Virus record (IMG/VR): IMGVR_UViG_3300009785_001876
Location: 1-23,163 of that record
Reading direction: 5' to 3' (one strand)
Length of the DNA: 23,163 nucleotides
Origin: a virus
The position numbers and the translations under genes were made by a program. Of the stretch, positions 1 to 22,492 are shown piece after piece. Positions within the stretch are counted from its first letter, which is position 1; the number at the start of each line of letters is the position of its first letter. The notes beneath the pieces were generated by a model that did not search any database, was not told the DNA's origin, and saw only the letters and a program-made list of their open reading frames with translations.

Positions 1-603
1 AAATCAGATCTTTGTATACACTTGGCCGCAAAAGCAGACATTCGTGAAAGTTTTTCAAAACCAGATTTATACTGGCAAGAAAATGTTGTAAAATGCAGAA
101 CCGTGTTCGACGAATGTGCCAAACATAATATAAGAGTAATATATGCATCATCCTCTGCATGTATAGAATGGCACAGAAATCCATATGCTTTGTCCAAATA
201 TGTAGACGAATTTATTGCACCAAAAAACTCTGTTGGTTTGCGTTTTTCAACTGTATGGGGCGACGGTGCTAATGAATACATGTTGATTTCTAAATTAAAA
301 TTAGGTACAATTACATATGCAACCACACACACTAGAGATTTTATCCATGTGTCAGATGTTGTGAGTGCTATACAAACAATAATAACCAATCCAAAGGAAC
401 AAGGCGTGTTTGACTGCGGTTGTGGAATAGCATTTAAGGTTGACCAATTGGTTGCACGAAACGGATATGTGGTTCCTCTCACAGCAGGAGAAGACTTTGA
501 ATTAGAGTCTAATGTTTTACCATCTGTGAAACTAAGAGCATTGGGTTGGGAACCAAAAGTAAATGTAATGGAAGAAACACTTAATAGGAATGATAAACTT
601 TAA
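1..603 (+). CDS. NAD-dependent sugar-nucleotide epimerase/dehydratase, 5'-truncated by the window
   Basis: This is the C-terminal part of an extended short-chain dehydrogenase (GalE/RmlB-like), which would alter a nucleotide-sugar in the cytoplasm. The reading frame is open from base 1 and reads into a strand ending in IHLAAKADIRESF, the usual segment after the NAD-binding Rossmann start. The true start therefore lies upstream of the window, and the internal TTG at 22 is only where an ORF finder would begin. The catalytic YxxxK motif is visible as YALSK, preceded by the serine-rich YASSSA strand. Later come a TRDFIHVSDV substrate-domain motif and a C-terminal LGWEPK tail, all typical of the family. 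The glycine-rich NAD motif is missing because of truncation. The end overlaps the next start by 14 nt, implying translational coupling. Substrate cannot be told. Confidence 0.85.
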   Translation, partial: KSDLCIHLAAKADIRESFSKPDLYWQENVVKCRTVFDECAKHNIRVIYASSSACIEWHRNPYALSKYVDEFIAPKNSVGLRFSTVWGDGANEYMLISKLKLGTITYATTHTRDFIHVSDVVSAIQTIITNPKEQGVFDCGCGIAFKVDQLVARNGYVVPLTAGEDFELESNVLPSVKLRALGWEPKVNVMEETLNRNDKL

Positions 604-1726
604 TTTAGATGAAATCACTGAATGGCAACTAGAAATTACAACGAGATGTAATGCCGCCTGTCCACAGTGTCCCCGAAACATTAATGGTGGCAAAGTAAAT
701 CCTCACATGCCATTAGTTGATATGGACATTGAATGGATCAAAAAAGCATTTACTAAAGATATATTAGATAGATGCAAACAGATATTTTTCTGTGGCAGTT
801 ATGGTGATCCATCTGTTCACCCGCAGTTTTTAGAAATATTACAATGGTTTAGAGATCAAAGGTCAGACTTGTGGTTATACATACACACCAACGGTGCCAA
901 ACGTAAAGAAGGTTTTTGGGAAGAGATTGCAAAAATTATGAACGGCTATGGACAAATTGACTTTGGCATTGATGGATTAGAAGACACTAATCATCTGTAC
1001 AGAGTAGGAGTGAGATACGAACATGCAATACAAAATGCTAAAAATTTTATCAACGCAGGCGGAAGAGCCAAATGGAACTTTATTGTGTTTAAACACAATG
1101 AACATCAAATCGAAACTGTTAAAAAACTAGCAAAAGAATATAACTTCATTGAATGCCTTGTACGCAAAACAGGAAGATTCTTTGACCAGAAGAAACTAGA
1201 ACCTATGGAAAAATGGCCTGTTAAGAACAGCATAGGTCAAACAGTACGACATCTGCAGATGCCAGATAATCCAGAATATAGGAACGACAGTGTTAGCAGA
1301 GTTAATGAGGTAAAAGAAAAGTACGGCTCAATGGTAGATTACTTTAAACAAACAGATATTACCTGTGATGCATTACTAGGTAATAAAGTGGTAATAACAG
1401 CAGAAGGTATAGTAATGCCTTGTAATTTCTTTGAACATAACCTTTATGATGCACGATTCCATGAGGAAGCAGATCCTGGATCATTTGACCCGTTGGGAGA
1501 AAACAAGTATAATAATCAAATAATAATGATGTATGAAAAATATGGAAAAGAAAACTTACAAGTACAAAACAAATCTATGATAGAAATATTCGAAAACAAG
1601 TTTTGGCCTGATCTAGTAGACAGTTGGAGTAAAAAAGAGTTTAAAGACGGTAGACTGTTTGAATGTGCTTTTACATGTGGACAGACATTTAATAAATGTT
1701 GGGATCAAGGAGGCAGTATAAGATGA
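590..1726 (+). CDS. Radical SAM protein with SPASM-like C-terminal cysteines
   Basis: Radical SAM enzymes use a [4Fe-4S] cluster to cleave S-adenosylmethionine and start radical chemistry. The cluster motif CxxxCxxC is present as C20, C24 and C27 (TTRCNAACPQCPR), followed by a GDPSVHP strand and an HTNG strand typical of the TIM barrel. In the C-terminal part C259, C278, C359, C363 and C370 form a SPASM/twitch-like pattern, suggesting an auxiliary cluster. At 378 aa the protein is of usual size for this class. It sits between two sugar-nucleotide dehydrogenases, with 14-nt overlap upstream and an ATGA overlap downstream. A role in making an unusual sugar, such as deoxygenation, epimerisation or dehydrogenation, is plausible. 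Some SPASM proteins modify peptides instead, so the substrate is unknown. Family call is sure; the reaction is not. Confidence 0.85.
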   Translation: MINFNLDEITEWQLEITTRCNAACPQCPRNINGGKVNPHMPLVDMDIEWIKKAFTKDILDRCKQIFFCGSYGDPSVHPQFLEILQWFRDQRSDLWLYIHTNGAKRKEGFWEEIAKIMNGYGQIDFGIDGLEDTNHLYRVGVRYEHAIQNAKNFINAGGRAKWNFIVFKHNEHQIETVKKLAKEYNFIECLVRKTGRFFDQKKLEPMEKWPVKNSIGQTVRHLQMPDNPEYRNDSVSRVNEVKEKYGSMVDYFKQTDITCDALLGNKVVITAEGIVMPCNFFEHNLYDARFHEEADPGSFDPLGENKYNNQIIMMYEKYGKENLQVQNKSMIEIFENKFWPDLVDSWSKKEFKDGRLFECAFTCGQTFNKCWDQGGSIR

Positions 1727-2307
1727 AAATTTTAGTAACAGGTGGAAATAGAGGTTTAGGTAACGCCATAGTAGAAACATTAAAAGCAGATAGCATAAGC
1801 AGATCTACAAGCAATCACGATATTACTAAAAACATTGACACTATAATAGAAAAAAGTTTGGATTATGATATTTTTATTAATAATGCATTTGATGGGCCTC
1901 CCCAAGAAGATTGGGCAAATTTTGGACAATCCGTATTATTAATGAAAATGTTTCAATCGTGGAAAGCACACAATAAAAAAGGTTGGCTATTCAACATAGG
2001 AAGTATAGCTAGTGATGATAACGTTGCTCCTGAACCTTCATGGGAAACTTATAGAGTATCAAAAAAAAGTTTAGAAGCGGCAAGCCTACAATGCAGTCGT
2101 GCATTTAGAAATAATCAAGTTTCTTTTAAGACAACATTAATTAAACCAGATAGACTAGATACTGAATTGTCTAGATCTAAACCAACATGGACCGGAAATG
2201 GTGTTGATTGTAATGACATTATAACATTTATAAAATATTGTTTAGAAATAAAAAGCAACAGTCAAATAGATCAAGTTACTATTTCATTAAATTATGATTA
2301 CAAGTAA
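1723..2307 (+). CDS. Short-chain dehydrogenase/reductase (SDR)
   Basis: A classical SDR of about 194 aa, somewhat shorter than the usual 250. It would oxidise or reduce a hydroxyl/keto group on a small substrate with NAD(P). The start is placed at ATG 1723, not at the in-frame ATG 1696, for three reasons: a perfect AAGGAGG ribosome binding site lies 9 nt upstream (1707-1713), the start forms an ATGA overlap with the preceding stop, and the protein then begins MKILVTGGNRGLG, the standard glycine-rich cofactor motif (TGxxxGxG). The NNA motif (about residues 53-55), a serine in the NIGS strand (about 94) and YRVSK (Y110, K114) make a complete catalytic set. Its place in a run of sugar-nucleotide genes suggests a carbohydrate substrate, but that is inference. 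Confidence 0.85.
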   Translation: MKILVTGGNRGLGNAIVETLKADSISRSTSNHDITKNIDTIIEKSLDYDIFINNAFDGPPQEDWANFGQSVLLMKMFQSWKAHNKKGWLFNIGSIASDDNVAPEPSWETYRVSKKSLEAASLQCSRAFRNNQVSFKTTLIKPDRLDTELSRSKPTWTGNGVDCNDIITFIKYCLEIKSNSQIDQVTISLNYDYK

Positions 2308-2331
2308 CAAAAGTTTGGGAGAGTAAAAAAT

Positions 2332-2970
2332 ATGCAACTAGTAGAAGGATTATATATACCAGATGATGATCATCCAGAACATCATATTGCACAGTCAGTG
2401 AAAGATCATGACAGTGCTTTACATAAAGAAATTTTACAACGTGCTACAAATTTTAGACACATGGTTGACGTTGGCGGCAATGTAGGACGTTGGGCCATAA
2501 AGTATGCTTCACACTTTGATACTGTAACAGCATTCGAGCCTGCACATTACAACATAGAATGTTTTAAAAAAAACTGCGGAAACTTACAAAATGTTAATCT
2601 ATTTGAATATGGTCTTTCTGACAAAAACACCAGCGGAGTTTTAGATGTTAAAGTACCAAATCATTTAGGTTCAACCATGGTTGTTGAAAGATACAAAGGT
2701 GATATCTTAGGTGATATAAAATTACGTCCAATGGATGAGATGCAGTTCACTCACGTGGATGTTTTAAAAATTGATGTTGAAGGAGCAGAATTACAAGTGC
2801 TTCACGGTGCAAAAAATACTATTGACTCCTCGTCGCCTTTGATATGTTTGGAACGATGTGTGTTCAATCAAGGCAATGATGGCAAACAAGCAATCAATAC
2901 CTGGTTGGAAGGCCTAGGTTATACTAGAGTTTATAAACTCACCAGAGACTGCATTTACCAAAGATTATGA
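2332..2970 (+). CDS. FkbM-family SAM-dependent methyltransferase
   Basis: FkbM-type enzymes methylate hydroxyl groups, commonly on sugars of polysaccharides or glycolipids. The SAM-binding motif I is seen as VDVGGNVG (residues 45-52), followed by the acidic end of strand 2 in FEP (68-70). A diagnostic FkbM block is seen as LKIDVEGAE (about 145-153) followed by VLHGA. Length (212 aa) fits the family. The ATG is preceded by GGGAG (2317-2321) about 10 nt upstream. A 24-nt gap separates it from the SDR gene, one of the few gaps in this island. Its stop overlaps the start of the next gene (ATGA at 2967). It probably O-methylates a sugar made by the neighbouring genes. Confidence 0.85.
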   Translation: MQLVEGLYIPDDDHPEHHIAQSVKDHDSALHKEILQRATNFRHMVDVGGNVGRWAIKYASHFDTVTAFEPAHYNIECFKKNCGNLQNVNLFEYGLSDKNTSGVLDVKVPNHLGSTMVVERYKGDILGDIKLRPMDEMQFTHVDVLKIDVEGAELQVLHGAKNTIDSSSPLICLERCVFNQGNDGKQAINTWLEGLGYTRVYKLTRDCIYQRL

Positions 2971-3971
2971 AAATCCTAATAACAGGATCTCTTGGATTTG
3001 TAGGTTCTCATCTTGCTAAAAGATATCATTCAACAGGACACAAAGTTGTTGGCATAGACAATGGTATAGGTGGATATGATGATAATCTCACTGAAGTTCA
3101 AACATTAAGAATTGATTGTTGTAATCAATCTGCATTAGATCAATTATTTGCTCGTGAAAAATTTGACATTGTTATTCATGCGGCTTGTACAGCATACGAA
3201 GGCCTTAGTATTGTGTCTCCTGTACTTGTTACAAGAAACACATACGATGCTACTGTAAATGTGTTAACAGCGTCAATCAAACACAATATAAAAAGATTTG
3301 TGTATATGAGTTCAATGGCACGTTACGGCAAACAACAGCCGCCATTTACAGAAGACATGAAGCCTGCTCCTGAAGATCCATATGGCATTGCTAAAGTGGC
3401 AGCCGAAGACACTGTGAAATGTTTGTGTGAAGTTAACAACATAGACTGGAGTATTGTGGTGCCTCACAACATTTATGGTCCTAACCAAGTTTACGATGAT
3501 CCTTTTAGGAATGTTGTATCAATATTTTTGCACAGAAACTTGCAAGGCAAACCCTGCATAATATATGGTGATGGTGAACAAAAACGTTGTTTTTCTTACA
3601 TAGATGACACACTGCAAATTTTTGATAGAATTGTTTTTGACACAAAGGCAGTTGGTCAAATATTTAATTTAGGTCCTGATGAAGATTATATCTCTATTAA
3701 CGAACTTGCAGATCTCACAGCAAACGCAACTGGTTACAATGGTTTACATCAGTACATGCCAGGAAGGCCAAAAGAAGTAAAGTATGCAACATGTTCATCA
3801 AATAAAATTAGAGAATATTTCAATTACAAAACAGAAGTAAAAATTAAAGACGGTATCACGCAGACTTTAGATTACATTCAAAAACGTGGCATAAGAAAAT
3901 TTAATTATTCTTTGCCCATAGAAATAGAAAATGAACACACACCACAAACATGGACCAAGAAACTAATATAG
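2967..3971 (+). CDS. NAD-dependent epimerase/dehydratase (extended SDR)
   Basis: A full-length (334 aa) nucleotide-sugar epimerase/dehydratase of the GalE/WbpP type. The N-terminal Rossmann motif GSLGFVG (G7, G10, G13) binds NAD, and an acidic residue ends strand 2 (GIDN). The active site is seen as MSSMARYG with catalytic serines near 115-116, and YGIAK with Y139 and K143. CFSYIDD (about 209-215) is the usual substrate-domain motif. The family interconverts UDP- or GDP-sugars; the specific substrate cannot be decided by eye. It overlaps the FkbM gene by 4 nt and the following glycosyltransferase by 22 nt, indicating a tightly coupled operon. It is intact, unlike the window-truncated epimerase at the left edge. 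Confidence 0.88.
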   Translation: MKILITGSLGFVGSHLAKRYHSTGHKVVGIDNGIGGYDDNLTEVQTLRIDCCNQSALDQLFAREKFDIVIHAACTAYEGLSIVSPVLVTRNTYDATVNVLTASIKHNIKRFVYMSSMARYGKQQPPFTEDMKPAPEDPYGIAKVAAEDTVKCLCEVNNIDWSIVVPHNIYGPNQVYDDPFRNVVSIFLHRNLQGKPCIIYGDGEQKRCFSYIDDTLQIFDRIVFDTKAVGQIFNLGPDEDYISINELADLTANATGYNGLHQYMPGRPKEVKYATCSSNKIREYFNYKTEVKIKDGITQTLDYIQKRGIRKFNYSLPIEIENEHTPQTWTKKLI

Positions 3972-4624
3972 TAATTTGTTGCCCAAGTCGAGGCAGGCCA
4001 GACTATGCCAAACGCATGGAACAATCTGTCTACGCCACTGCAAAATGGCCTAATCAAATAAAGGTAAAATTTTATCTCAATGAAGATGATCCAACACTCA
4101 AGCAGTATCGAGTTTTTGATGCAGACATTGGTATAGATAGAAGCACTGTTATGAGTTGGAATATATTAGCCGAAAGTGAAAACAGCAAGATGTACATGCT
4201 GTGCGGGGATGATGCAGAATTTATTACACCTGGGTGGGATAAAATATTCTTGGATCAATATGAGAAATATCCGGATGGTATTTTTATGATTGGTACAGCC
4301 ACAGGTAAAAAACATGGATTGATACATCGCACATCACCCCATCCTGTCATTACAAAAGAATGGCGCAATGCTTTGGGATATCATTTCCCGCCACAGTTTC
4401 ATCATTGGTACTTGGATGCATACACCAACGATCTTGCAAATGCTGTGGATAGATATATTTTTATGGAAGATGTAATGATCAAAGTAAAAAAAATTACAGA
4501 AGACGACACAGCCAAACGCATACGAACTAGTGCTGTGCATCAAAGAGATACCTGGGTGTACAATAAAACTAAACAGTGTTACTTTGATTATGATGTTAGT
4601 AAACTTAGAAAGGCTATGAAATGA
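3950..4624 (+). CDS. Glycosyltransferase-like protein (GT-A fold)
   Basis: The protein opens with a beta strand and a CPSRGRP loop, the nucleotide-binding start seen in many GT-A glycosyltransferases. Near residues 83-90 it carries a hydrophobic strand ending MLCGDDAEF, consistent with the metal-binding acidic motif of GT-A enzymes. A segment FITPGWDK follows, as in family 2-like enzymes that place a bound nucleotide-sugar. Length is 224 aa, a compact single-domain enzyme with no membrane segment. The start ATG lies inside the end of the epimerase gene (22-nt overlap), and the stop overlaps the next start (ATGA at 4621). Donor and acceptor are unknown. The fold assignment is an inference from motif pattern, not from a clear family signature. 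Confidence 0.65.
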   Translation: MDQETNIVICCPSRGRPDYAKRMEQSVYATAKWPNQIKVKFYLNEDDPTLKQYRVFDADIGIDRSTVMSWNILAESENSKMYMLCGDDAEFITPGWDKIFLDQYEKYPDGIFMIGTATGKKHGLIHRTSPHPVITKEWRNALGYHFPPQFHHWYLDAYTNDLANAVDRYIFMEDVMIKVKKITEDDTAKRIRTSAVHQRDTWVYNKTKQCYFDYDVSKLRKAMK

Positions 4625-5241
4625 ATCTAGCAGTGTTCGGCGATAGTTGGCCAATTGGCACAGAACTTCAACCAGGTGAGATTCCATTTGGTGATCTTTT
4701 ACATGTTAAATTGGAAACTAAAAATTTTTACAATGAAGCAGAACAAGGCACGAGCATCGACTCTTTAATTTTACAATTAGACAACTTTGCAAAACGCAAA
4801 ATACAAGATTGTATTTGTGTATTTTTTATAACAAATCCTACAAGATTTTTACATTTCCAAAACGGACAAAAACAGGTTCTTAGACCAACAGGAGACAAAA
4901 GTGCATTGAATAGATTTTATTTCTCAGACGTTCAGTCAGATGAATTGGATTATCATAGGGCAAACATATCAATACTCGCAGTGCAAAGAATGTGTCAACA
5001 ATTAGGTTACCAAGATTATTACATAGAGGGATGGACCAACATAGATTGGAAATATATAGGTATAGACAAAACAAAATTTATTCCACAAAGTGCTACTGAG
5101 ATGTTTGGGGCCGACACAAATACAAAAACATTAGAACTTGCAAAATTTCAAGACAATGAATACATTAATCCAAACAAGTATCATCCTAATCAAAAAGGTC
5201 ACAGTCTTATAGCAGAAAAACTTTTTAAGTTTATTAGATAA
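4621..5241 (+). CDS. SGNH/GDSL-like hydrolase
   Basis: SGNH hydrolases remove acyl (often O-acetyl) groups from sugars or lipids, and some act as acyltransferases. Block I is clear as VFGDSWPIG, with the nucleophile serine at residue 9. A glycine in EQGTS (about 43) and the asparagine of TNPTR (about 72) fit oxyanion-hole positions of blocks II and III. Block V is KYHPNQKGH, with the catalytic histidine near 188. The position normally holding the catalytic aspartate (three residues before the histidine) is an asparagine (about N185), so activity may be altered or rely on a Ser-His dyad. No signal peptide is seen, so it would act in the cytoplasm on glycan intermediates. It closes the first block of the island, overlapping the preceding gene by 4 nt. 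Confidence 0.7.
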   Translation: MNLAVFGDSWPIGTELQPGEIPFGDLLHVKLETKNFYNEAEQGTSIDSLILQLDNFAKRKIQDCICVFFITNPTRFLHFQNGQKQVLRPTGDKSALNRFYFSDVQSDELDYHRANISILAVQRMCQQLGYQDYYIEGWTNIDWKYIGIDKTKFIPQSATEMFGADTNTKTLELAKFQDNEYINPNKYHPNQKGHSLIAEKLFKFIR

Positions 5242-5287
5242 ATTTGTTTTTGCAACGTCCACGTAGATGTCTGGTTTCACAAAATAC

Positions 5288-5316
5288 TGTACAATACAAT
5301 CTATTCCATATATAAT
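5288..5316 (+). promoter_or_regulatory. Candidate sigma-70-type promoter for gmd
   Basis: TGTACA (5288-5293, 4 of 6 matches to the -35 consensus) is followed by a 17-nt spacer and a perfect TATAAT (5311-5316). The predicted transcription start is about 5323, one base before the gmd ATG at 5324, leaving virtually no leader. It lies in the 82-nt gap between the SGNH gene and gmd, the largest gap in the glycan island. AT-richness makes a chance TATAAT likely, so this is a moderate call. Confidence 0.5.
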
Positions 5317-5323
5317 TATTATA

Positions 5324-6295
5324 ATGAAAAAAGTAGCATTCGTAACCGGTGTGACCGGACAAGACGGTCCATACCTATCCAAACATTTATTAGAAAATGA
5401 TTACAAGGTTTATGGGTTAATAAAAAGATATTCCAATCCTAACCTGGAAAACCTAAGATATCTCGGCATTGAAAATGATATTGAATTATTAACTGGAGAT
5501 ATCACTGACTGTTCAGCAATGAACCATTTAGCAAAAACACTGAAGCCAAATGAATTTTACAACTTAGCGGCACAGAGTTTTGTGAAAGCAAGTTGGGATT
5601 TGACCATGGTCACAACAGAAGCAAACTCTCTAGGTGTGCTGAATATACTGACAGCACTTAAAGAAAATTCACCCAACACAAAGTTTTACCAAGCAAGTAC
5701 ATCTGAACTATACGGCAACAGTTCTGTAGATGGCCAGCAAGATGAAGATACACCTTTTAAACCAAGATCGCCATATGCTATTTCTAAATTGTATGCATAT
5801 TGGATGACTGTGAACTTTAGAGAAAGTTATTCCATGTATACATCTAACGGTATACTTTTTAATCACGAGTCGCCTTTACGAGGAAAAGAATTTGTCACAA
5901 GGAAAATTACAGACGGAGTGGCTAGAATAAAACTTGGTCTCCAAGACAAAATATTGTTAGGCAACCTTGATGCAAAACGAGATTGGGGATTTGCAGGAGA
6001 TTATGTCAAAGCAATGCATCAGATGTTGCAACAGGATGAACCGGACGATTATGTAATATGCACCGGCATACAGAACAGCATTAGAGATTTGTGTGCTATA
6101 GCATTTGAACATGCTGACATATCTGATTGGCAAAATAAAATAGAGTCAGATCCTAGATTTAAAAGACCAGCAGAACTTCATAGTCTGCATGGCTCCAGTG
6201 CAAAAGCAAAACAAAAATTGGGTTGGACTCCTACCATGACATTTGAAGATATGATAAAAAACATGGTCGATGAAGATATAAAAAGGCTCAGTTAA
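5324..6295 (+). CDS. gmd: GDP-mannose 4,6-dehydratase
   Basis: Converts GDP-D-mannose to GDP-4-keto-6-deoxy-D-mannose, the precursor of GDP-fucose, GDP-rhamnose, GDP-perosamine and related sugars. The match is strong: GVTGQDG at the NAD site (about 9-15), ASTSELYG with T126 and E128, PYAISK with Y151 and K155, the family-specific NHESPLRG block, and RPAELHSLHG followed by KLGWTP near the end. The start is set at ATG 5324, giving 323 aa. An in-frame ATG at 5267 would add 19 residues with no counterpart in the family, and those lie under the promoter. No Shine-Dalgarno is seen before 5324. The next gene starts at its last base (TAATG). No fucose synthase partner is in this window, so the next step must come from elsewhere or from one of the nearby epimerases. 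Confidence 0.93.
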   Translation: MKKVAFVTGVTGQDGPYLSKHLLENDYKVYGLIKRYSNPNLENLRYLGIENDIELLTGDITDCSAMNHLAKTLKPNEFYNLAAQSFVKASWDLTMVTTEANSLGVLNILTALKENSPNTKFYQASTSELYGNSSVDGQQDEDTPFKPRSPYAISKLYAYWMTVNFRESYSMYTSNGILFNHESPLRGKEFVTRKITDGVARIKLGLQDKILLGNLDAKRDWGFAGDYVKAMHQMLQQDEPDDYVICTGIQNSIRDLCAIAFEHADISDWQNKIESDPRFKRPAELHSLHGSSAKAKQKLGWTPTMTFEDMIKNMVDEDIKRLS

Positions 6296-7092
6296 TGCAA
6301 ACTTTTAGTGTGGTTACAACGTGGGGAGAGCAACACTGGGATCTTTATGCTAAACGTTCAGTACAAAGTATCATAGACAACTGGCCCAAAGACACACAAA
6401 AGTTTTTTTATCCCGACAACATTGGTCAACAGATCGAAGCAGAAAATACATCATACTTTAGTTTAAAAGAAGTGCAACCAACCTTTGCAGATTTTGCAGA
6501 ACGACACAAAAACAGTGCGTTAGTAAAAACTAAGATGGCAGAGGCCACTGATAATAAGTTTGTGTTTGACGTTGTAAGATTTGCACACAAAGTGTATGCT
6601 GTTATTGATGCGGCTGAAAGAGCAAACACAGAACAGTTGATTTGGATAGACGCTGATACAGTGACATATAAAACTATACCACAAGAATGGTTAGATCATA
6701 TTGCACCTCTAGAGAAATTTACAACATTTATAGGCAGACCAAAAAAAGGATACTCTGAATGTGGATTTGTATCTTATAACTTGGCTTCATTCCATGCACA
6801 AGAATTTTTTGCAAGGTGGAAAGATTATTATGAATTAGACAAATGGAATACGCTGAAAGGATTCACTGATTGTCATACCTATGATGCAGTGAGAACACAA
6901 ATGGTTACTGAAGGCAAAATTAGTGACAACGATTTAAATGATGGAAGATTTTTAGGCTATCGTGGATCTAAACATCCTTTTGTGAATTCAGAACTAGGTG
7001 ATTATATGGACCATCTTAAAGGCGAGCGTAAAGATATTAAAAACTCCAGCAAAGACATGAAAGTAAAAAGAAATCACGATCACTGGCAATGA
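6295..7092 (+). CDS. Glycosyltransferase-like protein with DxD motif
   Basis: A 265-aa soluble protein with an N-terminal strand (FSVVTTWG) and a hydrophobic strand ending in LIWIDADTV. Its DAD (about 119-121) matches the metal- and nucleotide-sugar-binding DxD of GT-A glycosyltransferases. Downstream, an ECGFVSYN segment and a TDCHTYDAV segment resemble acceptor-loop regions of phage and capsule glycosyltransferases. The C-terminus is highly charged and basic (KGERKDIKNSSKDMKVKRN). It starts at the last base of gmd and its stop overlaps the next start, so all three are translationally coupled. I recognise the class but not the donor or acceptor. Confidence 0.65.
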   Translation: MQTFSVVTTWGEQHWDLYAKRSVQSIIDNWPKDTQKFFYPDNIGQQIEAENTSYFSLKEVQPTFADFAERHKNSALVKTKMAEATDNKFVFDVVRFAHKVYAVIDAAERANTEQLIWIDADTVTYKTIPQEWLDHIAPLEKFTTFIGRPKKGYSECGFVSYNLASFHAQEFFARWKDYYELDKWNTLKGFTDCHTYDAVRTQMVTEGKISDNDLNDGRFLGYRGSKHPFVNSELGDYMDHLKGERKDIKNSSKDMKVKRNHDHWQ

Positions 7093-7931
7093 AAATAGCA
7101 GTATTCCCAGATACCTGTGCCAGATCCGGCAAGCCTGTGATGAAAGCATTTATAGAATCGTTGCAGGGCGAAAACATCATAATTTGTAAAAACAACGAAA
7201 GACCGGACTGTGATGTAGTTGTGATGTGGTCATGGCTGTTAGGCATGTATGGCAGAGACTCTATATACAATCATTACAAGAACAAAGCAAAATTTCTCAT
7301 ACTGGAAGTTGGCGGATTAAAACGTAATCATGCATGGCGGATTGGCATAGGCGGTATAAACAGAGACGCTGAATTTGCCAACGAACAGGTTGATGATAAA
7401 AGACTATCATTGTTTAACTTAGAGCCATATGGTTGGCATAACAGCGAAGGTGAATACATTGTCATATGCACACAAAATCCAAAATCAATCGCCTGGGATC
7501 AAGGCTCAATTGAACAGTGGTGTGAAAAACAAATCAAATGGATCAGAACGCACACTGACAAAAAAATACTATTGAGACCGCACCCTAGAGCCTCAGTCAA
7601 TCTAAATAAACTAGTGTCTAATAATGTAGAGATATCTGTCCCCAAGTTTATAGGAGAGCATGACAACGTCGACTTTGATAAACTACTAGGCAGAGCAGAC
7701 TGTGTTGTAAATTATAACAGTAACCCAGCAATAGAATCTGTGCTGGCAGGAATACCTGTATACGTTGATGAATCAAGTTTGTGTAGGCCTGTTGGCAATG
7801 CTATTGGCTCTGATATGATACATGCAAGACCTGATAGATCAGAATGGTGCAAACAGATAAGTTACTGTGAGTGGTTTGTAGAAGAAATTCAACAAGGATT
7901 GCCATGGAAAAGGTTGAGAGAAAAATTATGA
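7089..7931 (+). CDS. Capsule-synthesis-like glycosyltransferase (GT-B type)
   Basis: The C-terminal half has the hallmarks of GT-B capsule-synthesis proteins of the KpsC/KpsS kind. ILLRPHPRA (RPHP at about 163-166) is followed by a LLGRADCVVNYNSNPAIES stretch (about 199-217) and AGIPVYVDE, the nucleotide-sugar-binding region. The N-terminal half is a divergent Rossmann-like domain (VVVMWSWLLGMYG). Known KpsC/KpsS enzymes transfer Kdo to a lipid anchor; that is of interest because kdsA, which makes the Kdo precursor, lies about 5 kb downstream. Whether this protein uses Kdo is inference. It overlaps both the preceding gene and the next (start at 7928) by 4 nt. No membrane segment is seen. Confidence 0.6.
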   Translation: MKIAVFPDTCARSGKPVMKAFIESLQGENIIICKNNERPDCDVVVMWSWLLGMYGRDSIYNHYKNKAKFLILEVGGLKRNHAWRIGIGGINRDAEFANEQVDDKRLSLFNLEPYGWHNSEGEYIVICTQNPKSIAWDQGSIEQWCEKQIKWIRTHTDKKILLRPHPRASVNLNKLVSNNVEISVPKFIGEHDNVDFDKLLGRADCVVNYNSNPAIESVLAGIPVYVDESSLCRPVGNAIGSDMIHARPDRSEWCKQISYCEWFVEEIQQGLPWKRLREKL

Positions 7932-10686: not shown

Positions 10687-10717
10687 ACTGTTGAGTCTAA
10701 ATGGGCTCGACAGTTTT
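10687..10717 (+). terminator. Strong RNA hairpin with short T-run upstream of uvsW
   Basis: ACTGTTGAGTC (10687-10697) pairs with GGCTCGACAGT (10704-10714) over 11 consecutive positions, two of them G-U in RNA, around a 6-nt loop. The stem is followed by TTTT (10714-10717) and then directly by the GGAGG ribosome binding site of uvsW. It can be read as an intrinsic terminator for the 113-aa gene, leaky into uvsW. It could instead be a leader structure or processing site that limits uvsW translation. The short T-run makes full termination uncertain. Confidence 0.65.
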
Positions 10718-10729
10718 GGAGGAAAATAC

Positions 10730-12181
10730 TTGCCGCATTGTACAATACAGATTAAAGATGAGGTCAACGTCAAACTAGAAGGATTAGATCTTGTCACTAG
10801 ACGCAAACTAACAAACAAATTTAAATACGAGATTCCAGGTGCAAGATTTATGCCGGCTGTAAAGTTGGGCAGATGGGATGGCACTGTATCATTTTTTACA
10901 CAAGGTGGGTTAACCTATGTGAATCTGCTAGAAGACATTATGCCTATTCTAGAAGAAAACAATTACACATTTGATTTGCAAGACGAAAGAGAAGCATACA
11001 ATCTAACATTTGACAAAGTGAACACAGAAACATTTTCACATGTTGCTTGGCCGGCAGGACACAACAATGCTGGAGAACCAATTTCGTTACGTGATCATCA
11101 AGTTGAAGTAATTAATAATTTTTTAGACAATCCACAGTGTTTACAAGAAGTAGCCACAGCCGCTGGAAAAACTATTATCACTGCTGTACTCAGTAAACTG
11201 ATTGAACCATATGGTCGAAGCATTATAATTGTTCCAAACAAATCTTTAGTCACACAAACGCAAGAAGACTATGTTAACATGGGACTAGATGTTGGTGTAT
11301 ACTTTGGCGACAAAAAAGAAGTAGGACATACACACACCATTGCTACGTGGCAATCATTAAACATACTAGAAAAGAAAAGACTTAATGCAGAAGATGATCT
11401 CATAGAAGAATTTAAAAGAGATGTAGTTTGTGTAATAGTAGATGAAGTACACATGGCCAAGGCAGATGTATTGAGAAGACTGTTGACCAATGTATATGGT
11501 TATGTGCCAATTCGTTGGGGACTCACTGGTACAATACCAAAAGCAGAATATGAATTTAAATCATTACATGTCAGTTTAGGCAACGTTATCAATAAAGTGT
11601 CTGCTGTGGATTTGCAAGAAAAAGGATTGCTGGCCAATCTAAACATTGAGATCATGCAACTTAATGATTTTGTAGAATATAAAAACTACAGAGAAGAACA
11701 AACATATCTTGTAACCAAACAAGAAAGAATCAATTATATCGGCAGAATGGTTGAGCAAATGTCACAAAGCGGTAACACACTAGTGTTAGTTGACAGGATT
11801 AAGTCAGGCGAGTTGTTAACATCAGCAGTACCAGGAGCAACATTTGTGAGCGGTTCTATGAAAGCCAGTGATAGAAAAAACACATATGATGAAATTAAAG
11901 AAGGCGAAGGTAAAATAATTGTGGCCACATACGGTGTTGCGGCAGTAGGTATTAACCTGCCACGTATATTCAATCTTGTGCTATTAGAGCCTGGCAAGTC
12001 GTTTGTTAGAGTTATACAGAGCATAGGTAGAGGCATACGTAAAGCCAAAGACAAAGACTTTGTGCGAATATGGGACATATGCTCTACAGCAAAGTTTTCC
12101 AAAAGACATCTTACAGAACGTAAAAAGTTTTATCGTGAAGCAGAGTATCCGTTTACAATAACAAAGGTTGACTATCAATAG
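10730..12181 (+). CDS. uvsW: UvsW-type superfamily 2 DNA/RNA helicase
   Basis: T4 UvsW unwinds branched DNA and R-loops, and helps switch replication from origin- to recombination-driven. The N-terminal domain has the family block ARFMPAVKLGRWDG. Helicase motifs follow, numbered from this start: ATAAGKT (142-148, Walker A), DEVH (238-241, Walker B), GLTGT (motif III region, about 264-268) and QSIGRGIR (430-437, motif VI with arginine fingers). I set the start at TTG 10730 (483 aa) because GGAGG (10718-10722) lies exactly 7 nt before it. A longer frame opens at TTG 10691 but that codon is inside the hairpin stem and has no ribosome binding site. The gene's tail carries the -35 of the next promoter. 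Confidence 0.92.
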   Translation: MPHCTIQIKDEVNVKLEGLDLVTRRKLTNKFKYEIPGARFMPAVKLGRWDGTVSFFTQGGLTYVNLLEDIMPILEENNYTFDLQDEREAYNLTFDKVNTETFSHVAWPAGHNNAGEPISLRDHQVEVINNFLDNPQCLQEVATAAGKTIITAVLSKLIEPYGRSIIIVPNKSLVTQTQEDYVNMGLDVGVYFGDKKEVGHTHTIATWQSLNILEKKRLNAEDDLIEEFKRDVVCVIVDEVHMAKADVLRRLLTNVYGYVPIRWGLTGTIPKAEYEFKSLHVSLGNVINKVSAVDLQEKGLLANLNIEIMQLNDFVEYKNYREEQTYLVTKQERINYIGRMVEQMSQSGNTLVLVDRIKSGELLTSAVPGATFVSGSMKASDRKNTYDEIKEGEGKIIVATYGVAAVGINLPRIFNLVLLEPGKSFVRVIQSIGRGIRKAKDKDFVRIWDICSTAKFSKRHLTERKKFYREAEYPFTITKVDYQ

Positions 12182-12203: not shown

Positions 12204-12713
12204 ATGCAACTGCTTACTTTAGAAAACAAATCCTACTTGATGGATCGTGTACCCGACAAGGTTGATGACGACTTACGTTTCTCGGTCTTGGATAATTCGG
12301 ACATAACAAATCCAGATTTTTTCTTTGTGCCTTTGATATACCTTGAATCGTTTTCTTCTCCTTCTGCTGTGCTAGAGATAGGAGAAAACAAAATTCAAAT
12401 GCCATTAGATTGGCACATACTGTTGGGTGATCCAGAGTGTGGTGATTTAGAAATTGTGCCATTAACATCATTGAATGATAGATCATATCATGCTTTCTGT
12501 TTCAACCCACTGTCTGACTCGATGCCAAGATATCAAGAAGTCAGAATCACAAACATATACAACGAAGTTGATTGGTTCTTTCCTAGAGTAAAATCCAACC
12601 AATTGATCACAATTCCCACATCATCAAAAACTAAACCTGAATGTGCTTTTTTTATAAAAGAAATAAATCGAAACACTGACATGGTTATGCTCAATAATCT
12701 GTTTCATGCTTAA
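12204..12713 (+). CDS. Unknown 169-aa protein
   Basis: I do not recognise this protein. It appears to be a soluble, beta-rich, acidic single domain. It is aromatic-rich in several patches (NPDFFFVPLIYLESF near 36-50, NEVDWFFPRV near 120-129) and ends with a hydrophobic MVMLNNLF segment. There is no signal peptide, membrane segment or known motif, although some stretches look like a small jelly-roll or SH3-like fold. It begins directly at the predicted transcription start of the 12168 promoter and has no ribosome binding site. Its end overlaps kdsA by 8 nt, so the two are co-expressed. Presence between uvsW and kdsA gives no functional clue. Confidence 0.75.
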   Translation: MQLLTLENKSYLMDRVPDKVDDDLRFSVLDNSDITNPDFFFVPLIYLESFSSPSAVLEIGENKIQMPLDWHILLGDPECGDLEIVPLTSLNDRSYHAFCFNPLSDSMPRYQEVRITNIYNEVDWFFPRVKSNQLITIPTSSKTKPECAFFIKEINRNTDMVMLNNLFHA

Positions 12714-13536
12714 TTTTAAATTCACAAATGCTGGCCCATTGAAAATAATTGCAGGACCATGTCAAATAGAATCAAGAGATCATGCAATGAAGATGGCAGA
12801 AATCATTGCAAACATCTGTCACGAAGAAGGCATGCGTTGGGTTTTCAAATCATCTTTTGATAAAGCCAATAGATCTTCTGCACAAGGACCACGCGGAGTA
12901 GGCATAAAAGAAGGATTAAAAATATTACAAGAAGTAAAAGACCAATTCCAATGCGGTATATTGACAGACATACATCTTCCCAATCAAGCCAAACCTGTAA
13001 GTGCAGTGGCAGACATCATACAGATTCCTGCATTTTTGTGTAGACAAACTGATCTAATTGTGTCAGCATCTAAGACAGGCAAGATTGTAAATGTAAAAAA
13101 AGGTCAATTTTTATCTTACACAGACGTGGACAACATTGTGCAAAAAGTATTAAGCACTGGCAACAAAGAATGTATGATTACAGAACGTGGTACCAGTTTT
13201 GGTTATGGCAACTTGGTTGTCGACATGCGTGGTATTGCCTACATGAAACAAAAATTAAATCCTAAGAGTGCTATCACTACACCTATTGTATTTGATGGCA
13301 CACACTCAGTGCAACAACCAGGAGGCCTTGGCACATCTTCCGGTGGTGATAGGAGCATGGTGGAACCATTGTGTTTGTCTGCTGTGGCTCAAGGTATATC
13401 TGCTGTATTTTTAGAAGTTCATAATGATCCTGACAATGCCCCATCAGATGGGCCTAACATGCTGTATCCAGAAGATTTCCAAAAACTAATACACAAATTA
13501 AAAATACTAGACGCCACTGTAAAACAGAAGTTATAA
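12706..13536 (+). CDS. kdsA: 3-deoxy-D-manno-octulosonate 8-phosphate synthase (metal-dependent class)
   Basis: Condenses phosphoenolpyruvate with arabinose 5-phosphate to Kdo-8-phosphate, the first committed step to Kdo of lipopolysaccharide and some capsules. Signature blocks are all present: IAGPCQIES (about 15-23), FKSSFDKANRSS (47-58), TDIHLP, FLCRQTDL, VKKGQFLS, TERG.SFGYGNLVVDMR and the late FLEVHNDPDNAPSDGPN segment. C19, H200, E237 and D248 fall at the four metal-ligand positions of the metal-dependent class (spacing agrees with the Aquifex enzyme as I recall it). The metal-independent class has Asn in place of the Cys. At 276 aa it is full length and looks intact. It overlaps the previous gene by 8 nt. 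No other Kdo-pathway gene (kdsB, kdsC, kdsD) is in the window. Confidence 0.94.
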   Translation: MLNFKFTNAGPLKIIAGPCQIESRDHAMKMAEIIANICHEEGMRWVFKSSFDKANRSSAQGPRGVGIKEGLKILQEVKDQFQCGILTDIHLPNQAKPVSAVADIIQIPAFLCRQTDLIVSASKTGKIVNVKKGQFLSYTDVDNIVQKVLSTGNKECMITERGTSFGYGNLVVDMRGIAYMKQKLNPKSAITTPIVFDGTHSVQQPGGLGTSSGGDRSMVEPLCLSAVAQGISAVFLEVHNDPDNAPSDGPNMLYPEDFQKLIHKLKILDATVKQKL

Positions 13537-14041: not shown

Positions 14042-14228
14042 ACCAGAGTGTCCTAAGTGTGAATCTTTCTTAGGTGATAATGGCAGATGTAAAAACTGCG
14101 AAACATTAGAACTATTTGCTGAAGGATTAAAAATATCAAGAGCACAGAAAAAAGAGAAACTTGAATTAGAATGGGACGTTGAACCAACTAATAAACCCGG
14201 CGGAGTAGGCAGAAGAAAACTTGATTAA
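14025..14228 (+). CDS. Small zinc-ribbon-like protein
   Basis: A 67-aa protein with two CxxC knuckles, CPKC (about 9-12) and CKNC (about 22-25), separated by a 9-residue loop rich in Gly and Asp. This is a compact zinc-ribbon likely to bind one zinc ion. A basic/acidic helix follows (ISRAQKKEKLELEWD) and a glycine-rich basic tail (GGVGRRK). Such miniature zinc-ribbons in phages usually contact nucleic acid or a polymerase. It starts inside the preceding gene (17-nt overlap), and the next reading frame begins before its stop, so it is part of one operon. Specific function unknown. Confidence 0.7.
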   Translation: MASTNKPECPKCESFLGDNGRCKNCETLELFAEGLKISRAQKKEKLELEWDVEPTNKPGGVGRRKLD

Positions 14229-14256
14229 CCAAGCAACGGCTGTTAAAATAGATATA

Positions 14257-14931
14257 ATGCCAACATGTGAATACTGTAACAAATCATTTTCTAAACAAAG
14301 TACTCTCGAAGTTCATATGTGTGAGCCAAAAAGACGATGGAGCCAAAAAAACAACAAAGTTCATGTGTTAGCATTTGAAATCTTTAGACGTTTTTATGAA
14401 ATAAATTACAACAATCAAAAGCCTAAAACATATACAGACTTTGTTCAGTCACAATACTATAAAGCATTTGTTAAGACAGCAACCTTTATCACAAGCAACA
14501 CACCTATCGAAATTGGAGCATTCATAGACTGGCTTTGCACATCGAACATAAGAATAGACTCGTGGGCCAAACAAGGCACAATAGACACATATCTAAAACA
14601 TTTGATTCGTACAGAACCCGTACCACAAGCACTTAACAGAACTATAATGACCATGGGTGTTTGGGCAGAACAAGAAGACGCAAGACTTGAAGATTTTTTT
14701 AAATACGTAAATTTAAACAGAGTGTGTCAGATGATTGTAAATGGTAGAATATCTCCGTGGGTGTTATTGAATTGCGAGACAGGCAAGGATCTAATTACTG
14801 TGATGCATGATGATCATATAAAAATGATATTTGAAGTAATTGATCCAGAATGGTGGAAGCGTACATTTAAAAAACGTGATGAGGATTTAGATTTTGTTAG
14901 AAATACTTTACGTGAAGCAGGCATAGAATGA
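14257..14931 (+). CDS. Unknown protein with N-terminal C2HC zinc finger
   Basis: The protein starts with a zinc finger: C4, C7, H20 and C22 (CEYC, then VHMC), with the usual F11 and L17 core residues. This resembles a classical C2H2 finger with the last histidine replaced by cysteine at very short spacing. About 200 residues follow in an alpha-helical domain with many aromatic residues (IFRRFYEINY, YKAFVKTATF, WLLNCE-like and WWKRTF segments) that I do not recognise. The start is placed at ATG 14257 (224 aa), where the finger begins. The frame opens at TTG 14221, but those 12 residues have no ribosome binding site and overlap the previous gene. DNA or RNA binding is likely from the finger. 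It lies between gp62-like and DnaE-like genes. Confidence 0.75.
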   Translation: MPTCEYCNKSFSKQSTLEVHMCEPKRRWSQKNNKVHVLAFEIFRRFYEINYNNQKPKTYTDFVQSQYYKAFVKTATFITSNTPIEIGAFIDWLCTSNIRIDSWAKQGTIDTYLKHLIRTEPVPQALNRTIMTMGVWAEQEDARLEDFFKYVNLNRVCQMIVNGRISPWVLLNCETGKDLITVMHDDHIKMIFEVIDPEWWKRTFKKRDEDLDFVRNTLREAGIE

Positions 14932-14944
14932 TAGGAATATTAAA

Positions 14945-15505
14945 ATGGATATAGATATCGACTTTGCAGATAGACAGAAAATACTAGACAAGTTGCCGCA
15001 CGTCAAAGCAACCATTAATGATCATAATGGCCTTAAGTCACACAACACAGGCGTATACTTTACAGATGCTCCTACCATCCCAGACACCAACCAATGCTCA
15101 CTAGATTATCAAGTAGCAGACGAACTTGGTTACTTTAAATTAGACTTGCTCAACGTAAACATATATTCACAGGTAACATCGAGAAAACATTTGCAAGAAC
15201 TTTTTGATAAAGAACCCCCATGGCATAAATTACAAAACAAAGATTTTGTTGATCAATTATTTCATTTGAATAACCATTTTGATGTTGTTTCAAAACTACA
15301 ACCTACTAATTTAGAACAACTTGCATCTTGCTTGGCTATTATTCGTCCAGCCAAACGATATCTGTTAAACATGGGTTGGGAGGAAATACTAAAGCAAGTA
15401 TGGGTGAAACCAACTGATGATCAATATTTTTTTAAGAAGGCACATTCATTTTCATATGCAGGCGCAGTTGCAGTGCATATGAACTTAATCGACTCGACGA
15501 ATTAA
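14945..15505 (+). CDS. Miniature DnaE-like (family C DNA polymerase core) protein
   Basis: Only 186 aa, against roughly 1,100 for bacterial DnaE, yet it shows the DnaE motifs in the same order. DIDIDFADR at the very start matches the PDxDxDF block, so D4 and D6 align with two catalytic aspartates. HNTGVYF (33-39) matches the HAGGVVI region. LGYFKLDLLNVNIY (61-74) matches the LxxVKFDFLGL block, so D67 aligns with the third. LQPTNLEQLASCLAIIRP (118-135) matches the PxxFEDLxALxALYRP block. FFKKAHSFSYA (162-172) matches FNKSHSAAYA. The PHP domain, GRGSAAGS block, most of the thumb and fingers, and the beta- and tau-binding regions are absent. AGGA (14933-14936) precedes the ATG by 8 nt. Its tail overlaps the antisense gene by 21 nt. 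Catalysis is doubtful. Confidence 0.6.
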   Translation: MDIDIDFADRQKILDKLPHVKATINDHNGLKSHNTGVYFTDAPTIPDTNQCSLDYQVADELGYFKLDLLNVNIYSQVTSRKHLQELFDKEPPWHKLQNKDFVDQLFHLNNHFDVVSKLQPTNLEQLASCLAIIRPAKRYLLNMGWEEILKQVWVKPTDDQYFFKKAHSFSYAGAVAVHMNLIDSTN

Positions 15506-15859
15506 TTGAACAGTTTTTCGACGTATTCGTTTAGAAGAAGTAAGATCACTAAGTTGTACAATTGGTCCAAATACTATTGTGACTTCTTTGACAGCAAATG
15601 AAACTAGATAAGGCCTAAACACTCTGAAACTGTCGCCGATGAATATATTAATAGGTAGTTTCCTGTTTGATTCCCACCACCAAGTCTTACCGTTTTCTAA
15701 GAACAATGTTCGTAACTGATGCGGTATTGCATCATAATTGTATATGCTAATAACCCTTGGATCACAGTTTTGACAAATGCCTAAATATTCTTCTTTACCT
15801 ACCTTAATAAGCGTTAAGAACGGGTGATTTGATTGAATATTTTCTAGATCAATGGTCAT
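15485..15859 (-). CDS. Unknown 124-aa protein on the opposite strand
   Basis: I do not recognise this protein. It is one of only two minus-strand genes in the window. It has a beta-rich look, with a CQNCDPRVISIYNYD segment (two cysteines spaced CxxC), a tryptophan cluster TWWWESNRK (about residues 59-67) and a hydrophobic stretch FRPYLVSFAVKEVTIVFGP. The basic C-terminus (SSKRIRRKTVQLIRR) could bind nucleic acid. Its last 21 nt overlap the end of the DnaE-like gene, tail to tail. Upstream lies a TATAAT on the minus strand (15880 down to 15875), which would start transcription near 15868, only about 9 nt before the ATG. The complete frame, no better reading frame opposite and its own -10 box support it as a real gene. 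Confidence 0.7.
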   Translation of the reverse strand: MTIDLENIQSNHPFLTLIKVGKEEYLGICQNCDPRVISIYNYDAIPHQLRTLFLENGKTWWWESNRKLPINIFIGDSFRVFRPYLVSFAVKEVTIVFGPIVQLSDLTSSKRIRRKTVQLIRRVD

Positions 15860-18142: not shown

Positions 18143-19090
18143 ATGTTTCCTGAACTTAAACAGACAGTCGAATCACATCTGCCTGCTCGTAGGAAGAAAA
18201 CACCGTCGGGTTGGATATCTTTCAATGCACCATGCTGTGTTAACCAAGGAGAAAGTGCCGACACTCGACAAAGAGGCGGAGTCATATATCCAGGCGACGG
18301 ATCTATAAACTATCACTGTTTTAACTGTGGTTTTAAAGCCAACTATACCCCAGGTAGATATTTGAATACTAGATTCCGTAAACTGTTAGGTTGGCTGAAT
18401 GTATCAAGCAGTATCATTGGAAAATTGAGTATGCAGGCAATTGCACTGTCACAAGAAGTAAATCCGGAACAAAAGAAACTAGATGATGAAATAAAATTTG
18501 ACACAATTAGATTACCAACAGATGCTGAACCTATTCGTACTAATCCATACCTTATTGAACGTGGTATTATAGACGTGCCGCATACTCTGTATGAAGCACC
18601 CAGGTCTATGAAGGACAGAGTAATTGTGCCTATAAAATGGCAGGGCAAGTTGATCGGGTATGTGGCCAGAGCAATGACAGACATCTCACCCAAATACTTT
18701 GCACAAGTACAACCTGGCACACTGTTCAACCTAGACAATCAACACTGGTCTAGAAAATTTGTGATACTGGTAGAAGGTATATTTGATGCTATACAGATAG
18801 ATGGTGTTGCTATACTAGGGTCTGAAATAGCACACAAACAAAAATTACAAATAGATGCATTAAACAGAAAAGTTATTGTTGTGCCCGATAGAGATCGTGC
18901 TGGCACTAAACTTATTGATCAAGTAAGTGAATGGGGATGGTCAGTGTCTATGCCTCCATGGGAACCTAATATAAAAGATGTAAATGATGCTGTGATTAAA
19001 TACGGAAAGATACTGACCATTCAGGCAATACTCAAGTACACACATGACTCGAAAGCAAAAATAAAAGTAAATGAGAAACTATGGCTTTAA
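18143..19090 (+). CDS. 61: T4 gp61-type DNA primase
   Basis: Makes RNA primers for lagging-strand synthesis together with the gp41-type helicase at the end of this region. The N-terminal zinc site is formed by C31/C32 and CFNCG (C59, C62). The residues between (TRQRGGVIYPGDGS) match the family loop before the second knuckle. The TOPRIM domain shows VILVEGIFDA (E211) and VPDRDRAG (D249, D251), the acidic metal ligands. PWEPNIKDVNDAV follows, the conserved end block that also occurs in T4 gp61. Length (315 aa) is slightly shorter than T4 (about 340). The ATG sits 2 nt after a predicted transcription start and begins the protein at the expected point before the zinc site. Its end overlaps the nuclease-like gene by 10 nt. 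Confidence 0.93.
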   Translation: MFPELKQTVESHLPARRKKTPSGWISFNAPCCVNQGESADTRQRGGVIYPGDGSINYHCFNCGFKANYTPGRYLNTRFRKLLGWLNVSSSIIGKLSMQAIALSQEVNPEQKKLDDEIKFDTIRLPTDAEPIRTNPYLIERGIIDVPHTLYEAPRSMKDRVIVPIKWQGKLIGYVARAMTDISPKYFAQVQPGTLFNLDNQHWSRKFVILVEGIFDAIQIDGVAILGSEIAHKQKLQIDALNRKVIVVPDRDRAGTKLIDQVSEWGWSVSMPPWEPNIKDVNDAVIKYGKILTIQAILKYTHDSKAKIKVNEKLWL

Positions 19091-21082: not shown

Positions 21083-22492
21083 GTGCAACAGTATACAACA
21101 GAATTACAGAAATTATTTTTAGAAATGTTTCTAGCAGATGCTGAGTCATTTGTCAGAGCACAAAACATATTTAGATATTCACACTATGATGCATCTTTGA
21201 GAGATGTGGCCAAGTTTGTGCATGATTATGCACAAGAGTACAAAACACTGCCTGATGTTGAAATTGTTAATGCAAAAACTGGTGGACAACTGCAATCGGC
21301 TGCCGACATTGATCCAAAACACTTTGATTGGTTTCTTGACGAGTATGAAAGTTTTGCTAGACACAAGGAATTAGAATCTGCCATACTTGCATCTGCAGAC
21401 TTGCTGGAGAAGGGCGACTATGGCCCAGTAGAGAAGTTAATCAAGGATGCAGTGCAAATTGGTCTAACCAAGGACCTGGGTATTGATTACTTCGCTGATC
21501 CTAAAGCAAGATTGCAGGCTCTCAAAGACAACAATGGTGTAATGCCAACTGGCTGGAAAAACTTTGATAAGAAGTTGTTCGGAGGATTCAACAGAGGCGA
21601 ACTTAACATTTTTGCAGGAGGATCAGGTGCAGGTAAGAGTTTGTTCTTGCAGAATCTTGCAGTGAACTATGCTGAACAGGGCATGAACTGTGTTTACATA
21701 ACACTAGAGTTAAGTGAGAATTTGACTGCGATGAGAATGGATGCTATGATGACTGATACTCCGGCCCGAGACATATTCAAAGACCTAGACACAGTTGACC
21801 TAAAAATAAAGATGAAAGCAAAGACCTTGGGCAAAGTTAGAATCAAATATATTCCAAGTGGCGCAACTGCTGTTGATGTTAGATCATACATTAAAGAGTT
21901 TGAAATACAACATGGCATAAAGTGTGATGTGGTGCTGGTTGATTATCTAGACTTACTGATGCCGATGAATAAAAAAGTATCGCCAAGTGATCTATTTGTG
22001 AAAGACAAGTATGTGTCTGAAGAATTGAGAAACTTAGCAGTTGACTTGAATGCAATATTGATCACAGCATCACAGTTGAACAGAGCCAGTGTTGAAGAAA
22101 TAGAATTTGATCATTCGCACATCTCAGGCGGACTATCTAAGATACAAACAGCAGACATTGTGATTGGTATCTTTACATCTCGAGCAATGAGAGAGCGTGG
22201 CAAGTATCAGATACAGTTCATGAAAACAAGATCCAGTTCTGGTGTTGGTCACAAAGTAGACCTAGAGTTTAATGTGGACACACTGAGAATACTCGATGTG
22301 GCCGAGGAAGAAGAGCATCAATCATTTAAGAAACAATCGTCTTCTATATACAGCAATCTAAAAAGAACATCCACAGTAACAGAAGAACCAAAAGAAGAAC
22401 ACAAAGCCAGTGGTGACGACATAGGCAAAGTAAAAGCCAACGTTGAATCAAGCAAGATAAAAGAGCTTATCCGTAATCTAAATAAAAAATAG
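21083..22492 (+). CDS. 41: T4 gp41-type replicative DNA helicase (DnaB/RecA fold)
   Basis: Hexameric 5'-3' helicase of the replisome, the partner of the gp61 primase encoded 2 kb upstream. The N-terminal helical domain (first 130 residues) is followed by the RecA core. Walker A is GGSGAGKS (179-186), and LEL with E209 is the likely catalytic glutamate. Walker B is VVLVDYLDLL (about 283-292), and ILITASQLNRAS (Q331) is the DnaB H4-like motif. A linker with GWKNFDKKLFGGFNRGEL is typical of DnaB-type helicases. The C-terminal 60 residues are charged and probably disordered. Length (469 aa) matches T4 gp41 (about 475). It starts at GTG 21083, at the predicted transcription start. It ends 1 nt before the convergent sulfotransferase gene. 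Confidence 0.93.
   Translation: MQQYTTELQKLFLEMFLADAESFVRAQNIFRYSHYDASLRDVAKFVHDYAQEYKTLPDVEIVNAKTGGQLQSAADIDPKHFDWFLDEYESFARHKELESAILASADLLEKGDYGPVEKLIKDAVQIGLTKDLGIDYFADPKARLQALKDNNGVMPTGWKNFDKKLFGGFNRGELNIFAGGSGAGKSLFLQNLAVNYAEQGMNCVYITLELSENLTAMRMDAMMTDTPARDIFKDLDTVDLKIKMKAKTLGKVRIKYIPSGATAVDVRSYIKEFEIQHGIKCDVVLVDYLDLLMPMNKKVSPSDLFVKDKYVSEELRNLAVDLNAILITASQLNRASVEEIEFDHSHISGGLSKIQTADIVIGIFTSRAMRERGKYQIQFMKTRSSSGVGHKVDLEFNVDTLRILDVAEEEEHQSFKKQSSSIYSNLKRTSTVTEEPKEEHKASGDDIGKVKANVESSKIKELIRNLNKK

Follow-up and report, generated by a model that had tools for sequence, protein, structure and literature searches.

A probable C-terminal half of a split minimal DNA polymerase III alpha in the replication block of an uncultured T4-related virus

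A phage-specific minimal DNA polymerase III alpha (Pol III alpha) that is split in two was described by Iyer et al. in 2021 for the group 2.2 jumbo phages, which are related to T4 (PMC7824862). The parts are an N-terminal NTP-binding protein and a C-terminal Mg- and template-binding protein, and their suggested role is to assist the family B polymerase, either in the synthesis of one strand or in repair (PMC7824862). A truncated alpha was noted in the CBB paper (PMC5259590), the Atu_ph07 paper counted the protein as a Pol III subunit (PMC6102473), and PF07733 was found in 51.9% of the members of a marine jumbo-phage cluster (PMC9123017). Our literature search returned no bench study of the split minimal Pol III alpha. 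The full-length DnaE of other phages (group 3.2 and others, PHROG 405) is also phage-encoded and of family C; however, it is a single long host-like chain with a PHP domain, and serves there as the replicase (PMC7824862).

The sequence analyzed here (the window) is a 23163-base fragment of an uncultured virus. The 186-residue protein encoded at 14945-15505 is almost certainly the C-terminal half (C-half) of such a split minimal Pol III alpha. It corresponds to the same Mg- and template-binding unit (PHROG 11778), likewise lacks the PHP, OB, and tail domains, and lies in the same type of phage and the same replication block. The window differs from the described system in being known from the 23-kb fragment alone, with the partner, the family B polymerase, and the genome size outside the view, and in that its close relatives also bear a compact DnaE in a single chain. 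The window protein thus adds a member to a described family, while the compact DnaE is a lead that is new here. Since both the family and its split had been published for this phage group (PMC7824862), a DnaE-like core is not unexpected in a T4-like phage, contrary to the initial annotation of this DNA.

The reading frame is open, starts with ATG, and faces a stop-rich opposite strand. Its position and that of its motifs were confirmed as first annotated, and its neighbors are as follows.

10691..12181 (+): UvsW-like helicase, start of the conserved replication block (PHROG 16, E=5e-78; synteny)
12204..12713 (+): 169-aa block protein, PHROG 11279, function not assigned (PHROG match; synteny)
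14221..14931 (+): 236-aa block protein, PHROG 11058, shortly upstream of the C-half in most relatives (PHROG match, motif, synteny)
14945..15505 (+): probable C-terminal half of split minimal Pol III alpha, 186 aa, PHROG 11778 (profile, alignment, fold)
15485..15859 (-): 124-aa gene, convergent, its 3' end overlapping the C-half gene; conserved in 16/16 relatives compared
18143..19090 (+): DnaG/gp61-type primase (profile matches; synteny)
21083..22492 (+): gp41 DnaB-type helicase (profile matches; synteny)

The order UvsW, 169-aa protein, 236-aa protein, C-half, convergent 124-aa gene, primase, and gp41, with further genes after the 169-aa and 124-aa genes, is kept with exceptions in the isolates and environmental relatives compared. 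One exception is XacN1, in which only the C-half and the convergent gene were seen within the stretch searched. The 236-aa protein carries an N-terminal C2H2 zinc-finger-like motif, CEYCNKSFSKQSTLEVHMC, with a Pfam E-value of 4.5e-5, just under the cut-off; beyond this motif and PHROG 11058 nothing was matched, and in particular no gp62 family, the assignment first proposed for this gene. In almost every relative compared, the C-half gene has its 3' end overlapped or abutted by the convergent 124-aa gene, whose product has no match in Pfam. Within the replication block, a DAHP-synthase-family enzyme (12706-13536; PF00793, E=3e-62; KdsA-like by eye) is inserted, a gene retained in some marine relatives only. 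Additionally, positions 22-7931 hold a run of apparent epimerase/dehydratase, radical-SAM, methyltransferase, and glycosyl-transfer genes, which by eye resembles a sugar or surface-polysaccharide cassette.

Searches with the window protein as a single query gave no match in Pfam and no relevant match among PDB sequences; profiles were therefore needed. The protein matched PHROG 11778 ("DNA polymerase") at E=1e-60 over 183 residues. A family profile built from 67 members, 34-77% identical to the window protein, gave three collinear local matches to an alignment of ten DnaE proteins: residues 1-17 at PDFDVDF (E=1e-4), residues 50-137 at the D555-to-RPGP region (E=1e-7), and residues 149-175 at FNKSHSAAYA (E=6e-5). 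The Pfam family DNA_pol3_finger was matched by 53 of the 67 members (best 6e-5), and the best matches of the family profile among PDB sequences were mostly Pol III alpha, albeit weak (best E 0.037). The AlphaFold2 model of the C-half, computed from 59 sequences, reached a mean pLDDT of 94.2 and a pTM of 0.83, and placed D2 and D4 at the strand of residues 3-7 and D67 on the strand of residues 66-70. Foldseek against the PDB returned Pol III alpha or PolC as the first 11 matches wherever these were named (best E 2.7e-3, probability 1.00), and unrelated folds appeared only from E 0.8; in a viral library, the top matches were likewise DnaE, Pol III alpha, or PolC wherever named. The predicted fold of the C-half is that of Pol III alpha, with modest fold-search E-values yet without a competing fold. 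The remote homology to the palm and fingers of DnaE, originally proposed by eye, is supported by the profiles, the confident model, and the fold search.

Five DnaE motif blocks can be read off the translation in the DnaE order. The metal ligands of E. coli Pol III alpha are D401, D403, and D555, and a further aspartate, D405, is conserved in DnaE and replaced by Asn in PolC (PMC3919608). The E. coli sequence reads P400-D401-F402-D403-V404-D405, and the window protein begins with M1-D2-I3-D4-I5-D6, in which D6 matches D405. As D401 and D403 are the first two aspartates of PDFDVDF, the triad of the window protein is D2, D4, and D67; the triad first annotated (D4, D6, D67) was right in D4 and D67, whereas D6 has to give way to D2. 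Furthermore, H760 of E. coli Pol III alpha has been modelled as the steric gate (PMC8485763), and its counterpart is H167. The residues D2, D4, D6, D67, H33, G36, K65, R134, P135, K137, H167, and Y171 are invariant in 67/67 members. The positions concerned are given below, all on the plus strand.

14948..14950 (+): codon of D2, E. coli catalytic D401; invariant 67/67
14954..14956 (+): codon of D4, E. coli catalytic D403; invariant 67/67
14960..14962 (+): codon of D6, E. coli D405, DnaE-type signature, Asn in PolC; invariant 67/67 (PMC3919608)
15041..15052 (+): H33-N-T-G36, DnaE HAGG (E. coli 511-514), the thumb missing just before; H33 and G36 invariant
15143..15145 (+): codon of D67, E. coli catalytic D555; invariant 67/67
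15344..15349 (+): R134-P135, E. coli R639-P640, base of the fingers; invariant 67/67
15443..15445 (+): codon of H167, steric-gate H760 of E. coli Pol III alpha; invariant 67/67 (PMC8485763)

The alignment with E. coli DnaE locates two shortened stretches, as F7 to H33 spans 26 residues compared with 105 for F406-H511, and R134 to H167 spans 33 residues compared with 121 for R639-H760. We take these stretches, before H33 and between R134 and H167, to be the thumb and the finger tip of Pol III. By this comparison the 186-aa protein appears to be devoid of both, which renders its template grip and processivity doubtful. Of the regions of a complete DnaE, the PHP domain, the (HhH)2, clamp-binding, and OB regions, and a full set of fingers are missing too. 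The initial annotation was right that the protein has no PHP, thumb, or C-terminal tails and few of the fingers, as the length comparison with E. coli and the total of 186 residues indicate. The GRGS loop, which lines the nucleotide site in Pol III structures, is absent as well. Thus, the C-half shares with bacterial DnaE the motif order, the catalytic aspartates, the counterparts of D405 and H760, and the fold of the palm and fingers base, but differs in having no PHP, thumb, finger tip, or (HhH)2, clamp-binding, OB, and C-terminal domains, and in a palm that is distributed over two chains.

The C-half family comprises 90 phage records found by tblastn and at least 427 IMG/VR loci. Among the tblastn matches listed, nearly all are from jumbo phages, with 35-49% identity over more than 93% of the length of the window protein; they include RaK2, 121Q, PBECO4, PA5oct, Atu_ph07, XacN1, SCTP-2, Vibrio 2.275, and Phosso, and the annotation in phage records is often "hypothetical". 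C-halves are stand-alone proteins of about 170-220 aa that start at (M)PDxDxDF and keep a near-constant length and near-constant ends across 87 loci. No fusion of the two halves was found, the longest C-half measuring at most 238 aa from stop to stop.

The missing GRGS part is encoded separately. A PF07733 search of eight isolate genomes revealed one match above the cut-off in each, a separate protein of about 170-210 aa (the N-half), so the stripped core first described as standing alone has its counterpart as a distinct gene in relatives (8/8 isolates). The N-half stops at ...EFLK/N (E. coli ERFLN), 33-39 residues after GRGS begins, in 87/87 loci; the break point does not vary and lies between E. 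coli L392/N393 and P400/D401. The N-half profile matched Pol III alpha in the PDB at 8e-5, and the fold matches of the N-half model (pLDDT 92.6) in the PDB are headed by Pol III alpha only. Both halves occur in one copy each in 8/8 isolates and in 9/14 large environmental records; of the remaining records, three hold an N-half without a detectable C-half and two the reverse, and deeper profiles added nothing in these five. The genes are 15 to more than 200 kb apart, and none of the loci examined holds both within about 10 kb. In the four phages checked (121Q, Phosso, Paride, and XacN1), the N-half gene is located 3-8 genes from the gp44/AAA clamp loader. The distance matrices of the two halves in 17 phages are correlated (Mantel r=0.57, p=1e-4), as expected from shared descent alone. 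A family B polymerase is present in 19/22 relatives. No N-half was found in the 23-kb window.

Near the C-half of 121Q, RaK2, and XacN1, the annotation shows a DnaQ-like (epsilon-type) exonuclease (L008:2802-3620, L009:2721-3542, and L007:10868-11461), which might accompany the minimal Pol III alpha as its proofreader. An N-half locus on contig L120 was considered as belonging to the window's own lineage; it was rejected, as two neighbor genes 76-87% identical to those of contig G033 are insufficient for a lineage assignment. The same two-gene cassette (L120:12941-13778 and G033:12358-13198) is located close to the N-half on one of these contigs and close to the C-half on the other, possibly owing to horizontal exchange between lineages.

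In close relatives of the window, the weak matches of the N-half profile proved to be a different gene, encoding a single-chain DnaE core of about 565 aa. This compact DnaE displays the motifs TRGSAGSS, LPDVDIDY, HCGGIL, HLKVDILANRG, ADMYRRAF, and RAHAVNLG, matches PF07733 (2.6e-41) and PF17657 (2.9e-14), and aligns to residues 321-787 of E. coli DnaE (BLAST E=1e-30) without a PHP domain. Examples are as follows.

L022:18077-19777 (-): compact DnaE
L359:4765-6462: compact DnaE
L220:9595-11292: compact DnaE
L233:10001-11692: compact DnaE

At least 446 relatives of the compact DnaE were confirmed in IMG/VR. In the phage records searched, its only full-length close relative is in one uncultured 484-kb metagenomic genome (38% identity); in cellular genomes only ordinary DnaE was matched, at 24-28%, and the literature search returned no description of such a protein in these relatives. 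Of 13 window-like loci that were compared, 12 carry it past gp41 in convergent orientation; the distance to gp41 is mostly no more than 2.2 kb and reaches 6.4 kb at its largest (L356). The contig of the thirteenth (L021) ends 2.9 kb past gp41 with no compact DnaE seen. The closest relative that carries it, L359, is 77% identical to the window in the C-half and 84% identical in both primase and gp41. As the window ends 671 bases past gp41, a copy of its own would fall just outside. Elsewhere the compact DnaE is patchy, and C-halves are common where none was found; this persistence with and without the compact DnaE suggests an independent role for the C-half. An origin of the compact DnaE by fusion of the two halves was rejected, since its chain is that of an ordinary, uninterrupted DnaE core, thumb and fingers included, and matches the half profiles weakly; it therefore represents a separate branch. 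The small N-half was not found in 18 marine contigs with a compact DnaE, which are incomplete and without the clamp-loader region, and 17 of which carry the C-half; neither a family B polymerase nor a clamp loader was found in seven compact-DnaE contigs, also incomplete.

In our proposal, a minimal nucleotidyltransferase of family C (Pol III alpha, DnaE-type) is built from two polypeptides, and the 186-aa protein would be its C-terminal subunit. The C-half would contribute the metal-binding D2, D4, and D67, the second half of the palm, and shortened fingers with the steric-gate histidine, while the N-half (about 180 aa, from a separate gene that in relatives lies close to the gp44 clamp loader) would supply the other half of the palm and the GRGS loop, the two chains presumably joining into one active site. 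That site may serve phage DNA synthesis in lagging-strand handoff, gap filling, or repair, alongside a more processive polymerase, which would be of family B in the jumbo phages; in the window's lineage the compact single-chain DnaE is probably an additional processive polymerase. A two-chain enzyme of the phage replisome, with the window protein as its catalytic-aspartate subunit, is the reading we consider probable, although we infer its assembly, its catalysis, and the presence of the partner in the window's phage. The balance tips slightly towards a catalytically competent complex of the two halves.

It is conceivable, though unlikely, that the window's lineage has no small N-half. Close relatives carry a complete DnaE core directly past gp41 in contigs where the N-half was not seen, and a C-half short of thumb and finger tip would suit this reading. 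However, the C-half is retained independently, being common where no compact DnaE was found, and its catalytic residues are invariant in either setting; moreover, N-half and C-half genes are not linked in relatives, and the clamp-loader region, where the N-half gene usually lies, is not seen in the contigs concerned.

The ideas of a scaffold or of a decoy that inhibits the Pol III of the host through mimicry of the palm and fingers, both put forward in the initial annotation, are disfavored by the catalytic and steric-gate residues, which are invariant in 67 divergent members and argue against a dead decoy. The resemblance to DnaE and the occurrence in phages of many hosts speak for mimicry, but the similarity to host DnaE is remote only, no clamp- or tau-binding part is available for competition, the replication-gene neighborhood is conserved, and the complementary half is co-inherited. 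A decoy is accordingly very improbable, while an inhibitor that is active or partly active is conceivable; a role in replication or repair rather than in host inhibition is likely. That the gene is a decaying remnant of a captured dnaE, as its truncated length and the very word "truncated" in the CBB paper (PMC5259590) might suggest, is scarcely credible, as it is already contradicted by the constant boundaries in 87 loci and the conserved active site, together with strong conservation overall, a confident fold, and an identical break point everywhere.

Returning to the two-chain enzyme, if the halves do form one, we would know of no smaller family C polymerase; it would be thumbless and split through the palm, and it would put to the test the claim of Iyer et al. 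that the split forms model an ancestral Pol III (PMC7824862). As the break is constant and the active site invariant, the question could be addressed directly with two small proteins from a cultured phage, for example 121Q or RaK2. A separate lead is the compact DnaE near gp41 in marine relatives. More tentatively, the replication module of this uncultured marine T4-related lineage may contain two active sites of family C, one in a thumbless Pol III alpha of two chains with an as yet unseen N-half and one in a PHP-less single-chain DnaE core by gp41, which would amount to a division of labor new to studied replisomes.
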